The notes: generated by a model from the sequence alone, not told the origin. 64,000 nucleotides of DNA from a virus (IMGVR_UViG_3300045016_000140:1-64000), one strand, 5' to 3'; shown: positions 2,463 through 50,650, counted from the stretch's first letter. A program made the numbers and translations.

Positions 2463-3737
2463 ATGCCAGACATTTTCAAGCCAGGTAAGATAACTTTCGT
2501 TCTAGATGGTGGAGCTGGTTCGTCAGGCAAAGGAATAAGGGCCGCCAATATGTGGAAATATCACAGAGCCCCGCTTACTGCTATAGCTATAAATACCTTT
2601 CTTAGTAACGCGGCACACACAATACAACACGCTGATGGTCGTGAATATGTCCATCAATGTCTTTCAAGCGTTACGACGGTTGATGATAAATGGAATTTAC
2701 AATATCTTGGGCCTGGTTGCGGGTTTGCGGTCGACGAGTTTTTGAGGGATGTTGAACAGTCTAATTTGAGCGATGTTTGTAAGAAGAGTCGCATTAAAAT
2801 ACATCCAAATGTATCAATTGTCACCCAGAAGGATATTGATTATGAGAAGGGATTAGTTAATTTCGACGGTGATAAATCCACTGCTCATGATTCTGCGAAT
2901 TTGAGGATTGGTAGCACTCTGCATGGAGTTGGTGCAGCGAGGGCTAGACGCATATTGCGTCGTCCGGATGCTGTAATTGCTAAAAATGTCCCAGAACTGC
3001 AAAGCTACATTCAGGATTGTGGACCGGTGATTATGTCTAGCTTAGATGACGGGTATTCGGCGCTTGGAGAGATTGCTCAAGGATACCAGTTAAGCTTGTA
3101 TAGTAAATTTTACCCGTGCACGACATCTAGGAATTGTTCTGTAATGGCATTTATGGATGACGCTATGTTGCCTTTGAGATTTGCTGGCCCCGTTGTGTTG
3201 AATTTTAGAACTTATCCGATACGTGTCAATGACAATAAATATGTGCGTAAGTCTGATGACAAAATTCTTACGTGGGATGAATATGCGTCAACGCGCGAAG
3301 ATGATAGAAGGATTGTTGTTGGGTACTCTGGCGGGTGTTATCCGGACCAGCAGGAACTTACGTGGGACCAAATTTCTGAGAGTGCTGGTGAGAAGATATT
3401 TGAATGCACTAGTCTTACGAAGCTTCCGCGTAGAGTGTTTTCGTTTTCTCGGCAGAATATGGATGAGGCTATGATATATAATAATACTGGCGATGATATG
3501 TATCTTAGTATTAATTTTATGAATTATGTTGATGCGTCTGTTAAAGGTAAGAGGAATATTATTGATGTATTAACTCCAAAGGTTAGGCGGTGGTTGTGCG
3601 AGAATATATTCTCGCATGGTTTTTATTCATTTTGTGATAATAATCAGATTAATTTCCGTGGTCTATTTATTGGTACTTGGAAGACGATTGATGATAGTGT
3701 ATATGTTGACGCTGAGGTCATACGGCATTTGCTATGA
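2463..3737 (+). CDS. PurA/PurZ-like adenylosuccinate synthetase
   Basis: 424 aa, the usual length for the PurA family, which condenses aspartate with a purine nucleotide using NTP. The N-terminal P-loop is GSSGKG where cellular PurA has GDEGKG, so the catalytic aspartate is serine. NAAHT keeps the PurA catalytic histidine (NAGHT), and the segment around residues 204-225 (IAQGYQL, then FYPCTTSRN) matches the PurA EGAQG...YPxVTSSN signature. From family knowledge, Asp-to-Ser at this site is a mark of phage PurZ, which acts on dGMP to start 2-aminoadenine (Z) synthesis; PurA-like phage proteins with other roles also exist. No DatZ-like or Z-specific polymerase is visible in the window. A Shine-Dalgarno (AAGGTG) precedes the ATG. 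The stop overlaps the next start as ATGA, indicating coupling. Confidence 0.8.
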   Translation: MPDIFKPGKITFVLDGGAGSSGKGIRAANMWKYHRAPLTAIAINTFLSNAAHTIQHADGREYVHQCLSSVTTVDDKWNLQYLGPGCGFAVDEFLRDVEQSNLSDVCKKSRIKIHPNVSIVTQKDIDYEKGLVNFDGDKSTAHDSANLRIGSTLHGVGAARARRILRRPDAVIAKNVPELQSYIQDCGPVIMSSLDDGYSALGEIAQGYQLSLYSKFYPCTTSRNCSVMAFMDDAMLPLRFAGPVVLNFRTYPIRVNDNKYVRKSDDKILTWDEYASTREDDRRIVVGYSGGCYPDQQELTWDQISESAGEKIFECTSLTKLPRRVFSFSRQNMDEAMIYNNTGDDMYLSINFMNYVDASVKGKRNIIDVLTPKVRRWLCENIFSHGFYSFCDNNQINFRGLFIGTWKTIDDSVYVDAEVIRHLL

Positions 3738-23440: not shown

Positions 23441-24451
23441 TTAACCTTGAGGTTTGTAGTCGCGGTATTCGCCGCTCTTTATGCGCTGCCACCATGGTTG
23501 GTTGTCGACATACCATTTGATAGTTCGTGCGAGGGCATTTGGCCATTGGGATCTAGTTGGGCTCCATTTGAGTTCGCGTTCGATTTTACTGATGTCCGAG
23601 GCGTATCTCAGGTCATGTCCTGGCCTATCGGGCACCATTTGAACCATGCTTTCATCTTTGCCCATGATGTTTAGGATTTCGTGAACGAGTTGTAAGTTTG
23701 AGCGTTCATTATTTCCACCAATGTTGTATGTTTCACCGGCTTTGCCGTGCTCCATTACTGCCAAAATGGCTTCGGCGTGGTCATCAACATATATCCAATC
23801 TCTCACGTTTTTGCCATCGCCATATAGCGGTATCTTTTTGCCTTCAATTAGGTTGGTTACGAATAATGGTATTGCTTTCTCGGGGAATTGATATGGCCCG
23901 AAGTTGTTTGCGCATCTGGTTACGCAGATGTTCATTCCATATGTGTTGTGGTACGCCCTGGCGAGCATATCTCCGGCAGCTTTGGTGACAGCATATGGGT
24001 TGCGGGGGTTAAGCGGAGTTTGCTCGTTGAATTTGACGAATGAATTATCTAGGTCAAGAGAGCCATAGACTTCATCACTGCTTACGTATACGAATCTGCA
24101 AGAATTGTCTTTTACGGATCTCCAAGCGTCGAGCAGGCATTGTGTGCCGAGCACGTTGGTTTCGACGAATGGTCTAGAGTCTACTATGGATCTGTCGACG
24201 TGACTTTCGGCGGCCAGATGTATGATGGCGTCACATTCTCCGACTATTGATTTAACCAGATTATATTCGTTGATGTTGCCATATACGAATTTGTATTTGG
24301 GGACTTTGACTAGGTTGGCTAGGTTTTCGGCGTTCCCGGAATATGTTAGGGCATCCAGGTTGATTATCTTATGTTGTGGTCGATTTCTAATTATAAATTT
24401 TATTAGGTTTGAGCCTATGAAGCCACAACCGCCTGTTATTAGTATTTTCAT
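23441..24451 (-). CDS. rmlB: dTDP-glucose 4,6-dehydratase (RmlB)
   Basis: 336 aa, standard length. The NAD-binding motif is GGCGFIGSN (residues 7-15). The SDR catalytic tyrosine and lysine are in NPYAVTKAAGD, and the DEVYG segment carries the acid residues used in dehydration. The enzyme converts dTDP-glucose to dTDP-4-keto-6-deoxyglucose, the precursor of rhamnose and other deoxysugars. No RmlA, C or D homologue is present in the window, so the phage probably taps host dTDP-sugars. A small coupled gene follows. Confidence 0.93.
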   Translation of the reverse strand: MKILITGGCGFIGSNLIKFIIRNRPQHKIINLDALTYSGNAENLANLVKVPKYKFVYGNINEYNLVKSIVGECDAIIHLAAESHVDRSIVDSRPFVETNVLGTQCLLDAWRSVKDNSCRFVYVSSDEVYGSLDLDNSFVKFNEQTPLNPRNPYAVTKAAGDMLARAYHNTYGMNICVTRCANNFGPYQFPEKAIPLFVTNLIEGKKIPLYGDGKNVRDWIYVDDHAEAILAVMEHGKAGETYNIGGNNERSNLQLVHEILNIMGKDESMVQMVPDRPGHDLRYASDISKIERELKWSPTRSQWPNALARTIKWYVDNQPWWQRIKSGEYRDYKPQG

Positions 24452-47642: not shown

Positions 47643-47708
47643 GTGTATCTGAAGGTTCCATCCATACCGGGACCACTCATTTCGAGACTTAACTATACTT
47701 TATGGTGA
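47643..47708 (+). CDS. 21-residue leader-like ORF before the TPP cassette
   Basis: GTG start with a strong AAGGAG 7 bases upstream, encoding MYLKVPSIPGPLISRLNYTL followed by Trp and stop. Its end overlaps the ATG of the next gene by 7 bases. The next gene has no ribosome binding site of its own, so this ORF may serve to deliver ribosomes (coupling) or act as a leader peptide. Coding function not shown. Confidence 0.4.
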   Translation: MYLKVPSIPGPLISRLNYTLW

Positions 47709-48229
47709 CATATTTCTCAGAATTAAAACGATCAATGGAATGCTTAGCTGAGGATAAGCAGACGGTCTTTATTGGCTGCAATACCAAAAACTCTTATCGA
47801 GCAAATGGTACGTTAAAGGACGTGCCGGATTGCCAGATTATTGAGACGCCTGTCGCTGAAAATTTAATGATGGGATTGGCAATAGGGATGAGCTTAGAAG
47901 GCCATAAACCCATCGTCTTTTTTGAAAGATTTGATTTTATTTTAAATGCCTTTGATGCCATCATTAATCACCTGGATAAGCTCGCGGACATATCCGACGG
48001 GCAGTTTGTGCCTAAAGTGATCGTTAGAGTGTGCGTTGGTAGAAGGACGACGCCGTTGTTTTCAGGTTGTACGCATACCCAGGATTTTACGGAGCAAGTT
48101 AAGGAATTGGTGCATTTCCCGGTCATAAAATTATTGGATAAAAATGAAATATTTGATGCTTATATGCGGGCTTATCATTCTACACAGAGTTATATGATTA
48201 TTGAAGAAAATGATCTATATCGTACGTGA
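47702..48229 (+). CDS. TPP-dependent enzyme, transketolase-like pyrimidine-binding subunit (E1 beta-like)
   Basis: 175 aa, one domain only. ETPVAENLMMGLAIGMSLEG carries the catalytic glutamate region of the Transket_pyr domain (E that activates TPP), and HKPIVFFERFDFILNAFDAI matches the following helix pair of E1 beta/transketolase. The C-terminal swivel domain of full E1 beta is absent. Its partner is the PP-binding subunit at 49297-49932, separated by a radical SAM gene. Together they should make a heteromeric thiamine pyrophosphate enzyme acting on a 2-keto acid or ketose; the substrate is unknown. Confidence 0.8.
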   Translation: MVTYFSELKRSMECLAEDKQTVFIGCNTKNSYRANGTLKDVPDCQIIETPVAENLMMGLAIGMSLEGHKPIVFFERFDFILNAFDAIINHLDKLADISDGQFVPKVIVRVCVGRRTTPLFSGCTHTQDFTEQVKELVHFPVIKLLDKNEIFDAYMRAYHSTQSYMIIEENDLYRT

Positions 48230-48254
48230 TGTTAAATATATCAAATATAACAAT

Positions 48255-49304
48255 ATGACGTCAAACATATATAGTAATTTTAAGCTGGCTTGGTTTAATG
48301 ACAAATTGATTTCCTTGAGGGATGGTACGGTTACTGCGCCTATATATGTTAGAATTAAACCAATCAATCGTTGTAACCATAATTGTTTCTTTTGCGTTTA
48401 TCGCTCGGAATTATCCAATATGCATAATGAGATGAATGATCTTGATCGGCTTTCTAGGGAAAAGCTACTTGAGATATTGGATGATTTTAGAATAATGGGT
48501 GTAAAAGCGGTAACTTATTCTGGAGGCGGTGAGCCGTTGATTCATCGCGATATAGTTGAGGTTCTTGATAAAACTAAAGCAAATGGGATTGATCTATCCA
48601 TCATAACGAATGGCCAATTATTGAGCGGAGATCGGGCTGCGGCATTAACTGATGCTAAATGGGTTCGTATCTCAATGGATTACTATGACGCTGGATCTTT
48701 CATTCAATCAGGACGTGGTACAGCTCGTACTTTTGACGCCATAATTAAAAACATTGACGATTTTGCGAGACGCAGAAAGTCAGGTTGCAATATATCTGTT
48801 AATTTTATTATAACCAAAAATAATTATCATCAGATCGAATATGCCACCATCTTGTTGAAGAACCTCGGCGTAGATAATGTACGATTCTCGCCAGTTTGGT
48901 TTGACGATTTTCTAGCGTATCACGAACCAATTCGCGAGCAAGTTTTAGCAAATTTGCAGGCCGCCAAGAAACATGAGTGCGATACTTTTAAGATATACCA
49001 TAGTTATCGGATCGAGAAAGACCAGATGAGTAGGACTTATCATAAATGTTTTATCCAGCAGATCATCCCAGCCATCGGAGCCGATTATAATGTCTATAAT
49101 TGTCACAACAAATCCTATTCTTTTGATGCCATTATAGGCAATATCCGTAATCAATCTTTTCGACAGATGTGGTTCAGCGAAGAGACCAAGAAGCATTTTA
49201 TGGAGTTTGACGCAATGAAATGTTGTAATTGTCAGTGCGCTAATGATGCCAAGAATAAATTCTTGCATGACATAATTAGCGCTTACGGAGACAACTATGT
49301 TTAA
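48255..49304 (+). CDS. Radical SAM protein with SPASM-like C-terminal cluster site
   Basis: 349 aa from the ATG at 48255; in-frame ATG/TTG starts at 48201-48213 are alternatives. RINRCNHNCFFC-type site: CNHNCFFC gives the CxxxCxxC 4Fe-4S ligands, YSGGGEPL is the AdoMet-contacting GGE motif, and IITNGQLL and VRISMDYYD follow the TIM-barrel order. C-terminal cysteines (YHKCF, YNCHN, CCNCQC) resemble a SPASM auxiliary-cluster region. Members act on peptides, sugars or nucleotides; here the partners are TPP enzyme subunits and a GT9-like protein, suggesting carbohydrate or nucleotide chemistry. It overlaps the next gene by 8 bases. Confidence 0.88.
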   Translation: MTSNIYSNFKLAWFNDKLISLRDGTVTAPIYVRIKPINRCNHNCFFCVYRSELSNMHNEMNDLDRLSREKLLEILDDFRIMGVKAVTYSGGGEPLIHRDIVEVLDKTKANGIDLSIITNGQLLSGDRAAALTDAKWVRISMDYYDAGSFIQSGRGTARTFDAIIKNIDDFARRRKSGCNISVNFIITKNNYHQIEYATILLKNLGVDNVRFSPVWFDDFLAYHEPIREQVLANLQAAKKHECDTFKIYHSYRIEKDQMSRTYHKCFIQQIIPAIGADYNVYNCHNKSYSFDAIIGNIRNQSFRQMWFSEETKKHFMEFDAMKCCNCQCANDAKNKFLHDIISAYGDNYV

Positions 49305-49932
49305 TTACACCGCCGATGAATTGAAGAATTTTGAGAAAGATGTAATTGAAATATTTCGGGAAGGCATCTTACCTTTTGCGATTCATTTCTCAGATGGCAA
49401 CGAGGACCAGTTGATTGAGATCTTTAGGGAAATCAACGACGATGATTACGTCTTTTCGACCCACCGTTCCCATTACCATTATCTTCTAAAGGGCGGTCGG
49501 CGCGAAGATTTAATTGACAAGATCAAAAATTGTAAGAGTATGTATGTTTTTGACAGACGGATTAAGTTTATTACGTCATCCATTGTGGCTGGAACGTGTT
49601 GCATTGCCGCGGGTGTCGCTTTTAGCCTCAAGCTTAATGGCAGTCCGAATAAGGTATGGTGCTTTGTTGGAGACGGGGCGGAAGATGAAGGCCATTTCTA
49701 TGAAGCGGTGAGGTATGTGGAGAATATGCAATTACCATGTATTTTCATCATCGAGGATAATGATAGGAGCGTTGGCTCATCAAAAGAGTTACGTGGCAGT
49801 GCGTATTCTGTGCCTTGGCCTAAATGTGTCAGGCGATATCATTACGTTGCCACCATGCCCCATGGCGGCCCGGGTCTTAAGGAAGTAATTGCGTTTAACA
49901 AGGAAGTGGTAGATCGCTATGGAGTTCACTGA
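49297..49932 (+). CDS. TPP-dependent enzyme, PP-binding subunit (E1 alpha-like)
   Basis: 211 aa. STHRSHYHYLLKGGRREDLI resembles the E1 alpha entry loop. GDGAEDEGHFYEAVRYVENM holds the GDG...N-type TPP/Mg site (GDGAEDEG, then EN and IIEDNDRSVG), as in pyruvate, acetoin and branched-chain dehydrogenase E1 alpha. It is shorter than cellular E1 alpha (~320-400 aa). No E2 or E3 gene is nearby, so a non-oxidative carboligase or decarboxylase role is as likely as a dehydrogenase. Confidence 0.83.
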   Translation: MFNYTADELKNFEKDVIEIFREGILPFAIHFSDGNEDQLIEIFREINDDDYVFSTHRSHYHYLLKGGRREDLIDKIKNCKSMYVFDRRIKFITSSIVAGTCCIAAGVAFSLKLNGSPNKVWCFVGDGAEDEGHFYEAVRYVENMQLPCIFIIEDNDRSVGSSKELRGSAYSVPWPKCVRRYHYVATMPHGGPGLKEVIAFNKEVVDRYGVH

Positions 49933-50650
49933 TAAAATTTACGCTCCAATTTGGGGAACTCATCTAGGCGATTGCATTATGACCTTGAATTATATTTCTA
50001 ATGAGAGCGAAGCCATAGGCAAATGTGTCCGACTATCCGATCATTACGTTAAATTCAACGCTGCTCGCGATATCGTTAAGCGGCGTGTTTGCCATAATTA
50101 CTATGAAATTGAGAAGATAATACAAAATGGCAAATTCCATATTGTTAAAGACGATCCAAATCATTGGTGTGACCGGAGCGAAAAGTCGTGGCATAAGTAT
50201 CGGCATAGGCCGTTCCTATTGAACAAACACCAGTTCGTCAAGAATAATTCTAGGCAAATTGGGTACCAATTTAGAGCAAGATCCAGAGCCAGTGTCAAGA
50301 ATTTTCCGAGCGTGGAGATAGAAAATCTGGTTCTAAAATCATTTGTTGACGCTGGTTTTACCCCGGTTATGTTGGGTGCTCCGATGACGCTCGATCAATG
50401 TTCACAAGCGATGTCGAAAGTGGAGATTTTCGTTGGCGTAATGAGTGGGATGGCATGGATTGCTGCGACGACGAGAACGCCAGCCATTATTGTTAGAAAT
50501 TCAATGCCATCATTTGCTATTTCACACATTATGGGATATCAATCATTCATCTTTTGTCAGGATTACGTTGAAGTGATTGATGCCATAAATAAATATGGCC
50601 AGAATCGTGATTATTATGATCAAAATTGTCATAAAATTGAGAAGGTGTAG
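49919..50650 (+). CDS. Glycosyltransferase family 9-like protein
   Basis: 243 aa, overlapping the previous gene by 14 bases. The N-terminal PIWGTHLGDCIMTLNYIS resembles the GxGDxxxTLP motif of ADP-heptose-type GT9 enzymes. The C-terminal VEIFVGVMSGMAWIAATTRT, then PAIIVRN, matches the GT9 nucleotide-sugar site (FVGvDSGpmHlAaalgtP). The aspartate and histidine of DSG..H are replaced (MSG, W), so catalysis may differ or be lost. Fourth member of the TPP-radical SAM cassette. Confidence 0.65.
   Translation: MEFTDKIYAPIWGTHLGDCIMTLNYISNESEAIGKCVRLSDHYVKFNAARDIVKRRVCHNYYEIEKIIQNGKFHIVKDDPNHWCDRSEKSWHKYRHRPFLLNKHQFVKNNSRQIGYQFRARSRASVKNFPSVEIENLVLKSFVDAGFTPVMLGAPMTLDQCSQAMSKVEIFVGVMSGMAWIAATTRTPAIIVRNSMPSFAISHIMGYQSFIFCQDYVEVIDAINKYGQNRDYYDQNCHKIEKV

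Follow-up and report, generated by a model that had tools for sequence, protein, structure and literature searches.

A phage gene cassette encoding a minimal split E1-type TPP enzyme and a radical SAM protein whose place is taken by a zinc alcohol dehydrogenase in related loci

Four closely packed genes in a T4-like phage

The DNA analyzed here (the window) spans bases 1 to 64,000 of a viral record that is 74,669 bases long and possibly a fragment. Its source is a T4-like myovirus, in which the sheath, the gp19 tube, the baseplate, the portal and a T4-type terminase are recognizable. The plus strand carries a group of four genes, the first of which (positions 47702 to 48229) codes for an E1-beta-like, pyrimidine-binding (PYR) subunit of 175 residues devoid of Transketolase_C, with a match to Pfam Transket_pyr at 2.1e-7, above the cut-off. 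The next gene (48255 to 49304) codes for a radical SAM protein whose C-terminal domain is Twitch-like (Pfam Radical_SAM, 1.9e-19; SPASM, 1.2e-4), the third (49297 to 49932) for an E1-alpha-like, pyrophosphate-binding (PP) subunit of 211 residues (Pfam E1_dh, 1.7e-18), and the last (49919 to 50650) for a 243-residue protein that is weakly GT9-like and a possible glycosyltransferase. The genes are tightly spaced, with overlaps of 8 nt between the radical SAM and alpha genes and of 14 nt between the alpha gene and the fourth one. The beta gene starts at the ATG at 47702. For the radical SAM gene, the ATG at 48255 is the start that fits the homologues, within a longer ORF that begins at 48201.

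A sequence-only reading of this region had proposed the same arrangement, and its assignments of the beta and alpha genes, as well as the close packing of the four genes, were borne out. In contrast, the start that it gave for the cassette, 47643, is out of frame and lies 59 bases upstream of the beta ATG. Its GT9-like label for the fourth gene applies only weakly, as the match to PF01075 (E = 0.0024, 17.7 bits) falls below the gathering cut-off of 22. We found no homologue of the fourth protein in viral contigs, and its membership in a conserved core is therefore not supported. In most viral loci, beta is closely preceded by a gene of one particular family. We considered whether the members of this family are relatives of the fourth protein, and no link emerged (hhalign probability, 1.9%; iterated HMM, E = 1.5).

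Alpha and beta probably form a reduced E1-type TPP enzyme

Alpha matched the E1-alpha subunit of pyruvate dehydrogenase (PDH) in the PDB at 2.5e-12, and beta matched the E1-beta subunits of 2-oxoacid dehydrogenases at 6e-9. The GDG...EDN TPP-Mg motif of alpha is kept across the viral relatives, its Asn being replaced in one cyanophage, S-SM2. The catalytic Glu of beta (E53 of ETPVAENL) and its active-site His (H125 of THTQ) are invariant in the alignment of viral relatives and align with those of PDH E1-beta. Thus, the catalytic residues of the TPP subunits, whose loss would have spoken against the sequence-only reading, are present. The pair shares with the E1 components of the pyruvate and branched-chain dehydrogenases the PP and PYR domains, the TPP motif and the catalytic Glu and His, but it differs from them by the lack of Transketolase_C in beta, by a truncated alpha and by the lack of an E2 in the record. 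Both chains are short in every relative seen, with no Transketolase_C and with an alpha of about 205 residues rather than about 360. The pair does not qualify as a transketolase, since its best matches are to PDH E1 and it has no PF02780.

Profile searches of the 74,669-base record detected neither the E2 catalytic domain, PF00198, nor Transketolase_C, PF02780; across 14 genomes used as positive controls, the same searches found the former in 10 and the latter in all 14. A host-encoded E2 is conceivable. A classical PDH complex was rejected on these grounds, in agreement with the earlier view that the TPP enzyme is unlikely to belong to such a complex. The accompanying statement that E2 and E3 genes are missing stands for E2, the domain that was searched.

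Both halves in the window match a single fused protein, phrog_34187 (1.8e-67 and 6.3e-49), a family of unknown function and 405 residues, and the fused form also corresponds to the cyanophage "transketolase central region-containing protein." We found alpha-beta fused homologues in 10 viral loci and in 9 loci of cellular genomes. An AlphaFold2 model of one fused homologue, made from an alignment without the cyanophage rows, had a mean pLDDT of 89. Its similarity to transketolase extends over the two domains (query TM-score of up to 0.67), and that to PDH E1-beta lies in the second domain.

The radical SAM protein carries a Twitch-like domain

The CxxxCxxC motif of the radical SAM protein (C58, C62 and C65, numbered from 48201) is invariant in 20 diverse relatives, and with the PF04055 core it places the protein in the radical SAM superfamily. 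Four C-terminal cysteines, C283, C301, C342 and C346 in the same numbering, are also invariant in these 20 proteins. SPASM domains are defined by a seven-Cys motif and two auxiliary clusters, and Twitch domains by four Cys residues that ligate one auxiliary cluster (PMC6231123). The earlier radical SAM/SPASM label was thus right as to the superfamily and in that both Pfam matches exceed their cut-offs, the SPASM match just barely, but the seven-Cys motif is not there. The pattern of cysteines is consistent with a one-cluster Twitch domain, an assignment made by sequence alone.

An AlphaFold2 model of the protein (mean pLDDT, 83) has DesII and BlsE as its closest folds, and BlsE is also among its best profile matches. 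Both enzymes act on nucleotide-linked sugars, which we counted in favor of a role in sugar modification, but they share only 13 to 19% identity with the phage protein and mainly catalyze deamination and decarboxylation. The butirosin radical SAM dehydrogenase BtrN, which performs a two-electron alcohol oxidation, has an auxiliary cluster of the Twitch type, ligated by four Cys residues (PMC9012708). Its overall similarity of fold to the phage protein is modest, at rank 47 in the fold search with our model.

In one related locus (L008:5157-7280), an apparent intein lies inside the CxxxCxxC motif of the radical SAM protein, such that the third Cys is the residue after the insertion. It has a weak match to the PI-MtuI intein.

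The cassette recurs in viral and cellular genomes

We found 70 viral loci with alpha and 80 with beta, the latter out of at least 285 beta matches. The complete viral gene sets follow the order beta-radical SAM-alpha in 91 cases and alpha-beta-radical SAM in 21, and 10 have the fused chain; five further loci with complete sets lack a typical radical SAM protein, and in one of these (L136) the contig end cuts through a radical SAM gene. Many viral loci are near-copies of one another or the same contig fetched twice. When clustered at 98% alpha identity, the four categories amount to 36, 8, 8 and 5 clusters, respectively, so that the 112 complete split sets of viruses correspond to 36 + 8 clusters. 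The three core genes, beta, radical SAM and alpha, are real, and a chance grouping is excluded because they recur together in many viral contigs. The core of the gene set that the sequence-only reading had suggested looking for in other phages is present in well over 100 viral loci, and the outcome that would have counted against that reading, genes not conserved together, did not materialize.

The core was also found in 25 loci of cellular genome records, mostly of DPANN archaea, the other carriers being Desulfobacterales and other Deltaproteobacteria, Verrucomicrobia, Prochlorococcus and Patescibacteria. These records are largely metagenome bins, and their taxon labels are uncertain. One such "cellular" locus, on a contig of an Aminicenantes MAG (L089), looks like a prophage: its fused enzyme, accompanied by an SDR, adjoins terminase-like genes.

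The divergence of the three proteins is correlated. Pairwise identities gave r values of 0.64 for alpha and beta, 0.55 for alpha and the radical SAM protein and 0.66 for beta and the radical SAM protein, and none of 2,000 permutations reached values as high.

A zinc alcohol dehydrogenase replaces the radical SAM protein

Four viral loci without a radical SAM gene (L114, L116, L119 and L170) carry a Zn-alcohol dehydrogenase (Zn-ADH; Pfam ADH_N, 7.8e-15 to 3.8e-16). In the first three, it lies between beta and alpha, i.e., in the slot that the radical SAM gene occupies elsewhere. A Zn-ADH is also present in all fused viral loci, and the phrog_34187/cyanophage proteins differ from the enzyme in the window by having this partner rather than a radical SAM protein. 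Among 46 non-redundant rows, the partner of the TPP enzyme is the radical SAM protein only in 28 and the Zn-ADH only in 18, with no row that has both or neither. Some of the radical SAM partners in cells are more distantly related members of the superfamily.

When mapped onto the alpha tree, the partner label changes four times, as compared with a mean of 14.4 for shuffled labels; the 5 to 95% range over 200 bootstrap trees is also four, but the well-supported branches alone force one change, and four is therefore a best estimate rather than a proven minimum. The fused or split state changes once on the same tree. Such mutual exclusion and repeated switching is the pattern that would be expected of two non-homologous enzymes serving one reaction. 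The equivalence of NeoA and BtrN would provide a precedent for a Zn-ADH/radical SAM swap.

Because the partner that alternates with it is an alcohol dehydrogenase, the radical SAM protein most likely oxidizes an alcohol by radical chemistry, like BtrN; the replacement suggests this indirectly. We consider its equivalence to a dehydrogenase to be probable, at somewhat better than even odds. A radical SAM family thereby receives a testable assignment of function from comparative genomics alone. The earlier proposal that the genes serve one pathway is strongly supported by their joint conservation, their correlated divergence and the constant presence of a radical SAM or Zn-dehydrogenase partner, and alpha, beta and this partner very probably cooperate.

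An SDR gene adjoins 9 of the 10 viral fused loci; none was found in the 113 radical SAM-carrying viral loci.

Sugar and glycan genes surround related cassettes

Genes for a Zn-ADH, epimerases, a carbohydrate kinase, nucleotidyltransferases, a phosphoheptose isomerase and glycosyltransferases surround the fused enzyme of cyanophages S-SM2 and P-TIM68. Pfam families in 98 selected cellular neighbors include Epimerase (13), PfkB (10), CTP_transf_like (9), adh_short (7), GT9 (6), ADH_zinc_N (6) and SIS (4), and those in 82 viral neighbors include FkbM methyltransferases and the GT2, GT10 and GT11 families. These sets were hand-picked near the core with no matched background, and they represent context rather than an enrichment test. 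The sugar and glycan neighborhoods in cells and other phages support the glycan role that had been raised for the cassette, and a glycan or sugar is quite likely the substrate class. As for the glycan genes reported elsewhere in the window, an RmlB-like/GDP-mannose dehydratase SDR was confirmed at 23444 to 24451 (GDP_Man_Dehyd, 8e-82) on the minus strand, opposite to most window genes, but the DUF115-like gene was not.

Two archaeal loci have other types of neighbors. On a Pacearchaeota contig (L101:11218-16332), genes for phosphonopyruvate decarboxylase-like, cytidylyltransferase and CDP-alcohol transferase proteins, as judged from the protein starts, lie beside the cassette, resembling a phosphonate pathway. 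In a Nanoarchaeota locus (L093:7581-8839), the cassette is flanked by a separate transketolase N-terminal half (Transketolase_N, 1.4e-26) and then a short second gene.

A possible route to a modified surface sugar

We propose that the cassette is a compact sugar-modification module that combines the oxidation of a hydroxyl with TPP-dependent carbon-carbon chemistry in the making of a surface glycan, and we give this reading a probability of roughly 45%. The radical SAM protein, with one predicted auxiliary cluster, would first oxidize a hydroxyl of a sugar or nucleotide-sugar to a ketone, a role that an NAD-dependent Zn-alcohol dehydrogenase would take in related loci. Alpha and beta would act together as one minimal two-domain E1-type TPP enzyme (PP + PYR), independently of E2 and E3, to make a carbon-carbon bond; the simplest reaction would be the addition of a two-carbon unit from pyruvate onto the ketone. 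In some loci, an SDR might then reduce the product, and glycosyltransferases would place the sugar on a glycan of the host surface or the virion. The sequences show the genes, their motifs (the TPP cofactor site among them), their conservation and the mutual exclusion of the two partners; all of the reactions and the substrate are inferred.

The combination of a ketone-making dehydrogenase, a TPP enzyme and, in the viral fused loci, an SDR fits this two-carbon branching scheme, for which there are parallels in known pathways. The lack of an SDR in the radical SAM-carrying viral loci speaks against it. In the avilamycin, paulomycin and kosinostatin pathways, E1 alpha/beta-like pairs are reported to add a pyruvate-derived unit to a ketosugar, and in that of paulomycin a ketoreductase, the aldo-keto reductase Pau7, acts after branching (PMC4753412, PMC4802897). 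AviB1/AviB2 (avilamycin) and Pau11/Pau12 and Plm8/Plm9 (paulomycin) are reported as PDH E1 alpha/beta homologues that install a two-carbon branch on 4-ketosugars, and by that description they resemble the window pair as E1-type alpha and beta subunits in a sugar pathway. In contrast to them, the subunits described here are reduced (175 residues for beta, about 205 for alpha) or fused, and they have a constant radical SAM or Zn-ADH partner. YerE performs a TPP-dependent two-carbon branching for the O-antigen sugar yersiniose (cited in PMC4753412), but it is a single TPP-dependent flavoprotein and not, like the window pair, an E1-type enzyme divided over two chains.

For the TPP step, carboligation, as opposed to decarboxylation or ketol transfer, has in our estimate slightly less than an even chance. 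More tentatively, the cassettes might represent a hitherto undescribed group of TPP carboligases, E1-type and reduced to two domains, that occur in phages, DPANN archaea and some bacteria and make branched or extended surface sugars, with an obligatory oxidizing partner that has switched several times between radical SAM protein and Zn/NAD alcohol dehydrogenase. We found no description of such a module in openly licensed PMC papers. Such a module would bring to the carbon-carbon chemistry of sugars a compact TPP enzyme with naturally fused forms, which phages carry, probably to change the surface glycans on which infection depends.

Other explanations for the cassette

The dehydrogenase might instead act on a sugar acid, oxidizing its alpha-hydroxyl to give an alpha-keto acid, and the TPP enzyme would then decarboxylate this product to an aldehyde, yielding a shortened sugar. 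Alpha-keto acids are substrates of the E1 relatives, a two-domain TPP enzyme without E2 and E3 could be a simple decarboxylase, the SDR could reduce the aldehyde, and BlsE, which the radical SAM protein resembles in fold, decarboxylates a sugar acid. However, no dedicated sugar-acid gene, such as one for UDP-glucose dehydrogenase, is prominent among the neighbor families listed above, and we regard this route as unlikely.

Less likely still is a transketolase-like chain extension to a heptose or higher sugar, followed by activation by GmhA/HldE/GmhB-like enzymes. The PfkB, SIS and nucleotidyltransferase neighbors could equally mean a heptose-type pathway, and SIS, PfkB, CTP_transf_like and Epimerase genes do accompany the cassette in Prochlorococcus, CPR and DPANN loci; the fused-homologue model is also closest to transketolase by fold. 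By sequence, however, the enzyme is nearer to PDH E1, ketol transfer needs no constant dehydrogenase partner, and heptose genes are missing from most viral loci.

The idea that the cassette makes a group attached to virion DNA draws on a PurZ-like gene in the window, which renders some base modification plausible. Yet no related locus supports hypermodification by the cassette: its homologues sit in sugar and glycan islands of cells and phages, and these enzymes are also encoded in cellular genomes that have no obvious phage DNA-modification genes. We therefore judge this proposal of the sequence-only reading to be very improbable. The E1-like sequence might also evoke an auxiliary metabolic gene set that tops up host pyruvate metabolism, a possibility that the lack of both E2 and Transketolase_C in the record and of large C-terminal parts of both subunits in all homologues makes the most remote of all.

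A PurZ-like gene distant from the cassette

The PurZ-like adenylosuccinate synthetase is encoded at 2463 to 3737 on the plus strand, 45 kb from the cassette, and nothing links the two. It matches NCBIfam PurZ at 5.4e-46, below the curated cut-off, and phrog_1211, and its PDB matches are adenylosuccinate synthetases and PurZ. The nearest phage record is that of Flavobacterium phage MaF61, with 33% identity. The gene may serve to make 2-aminoadenine or another modified base, by a route separate from the cassette. It is adjoined by a gene for a LAGLIDADG endonuclease, at 786 to 2393 on the minus strand.
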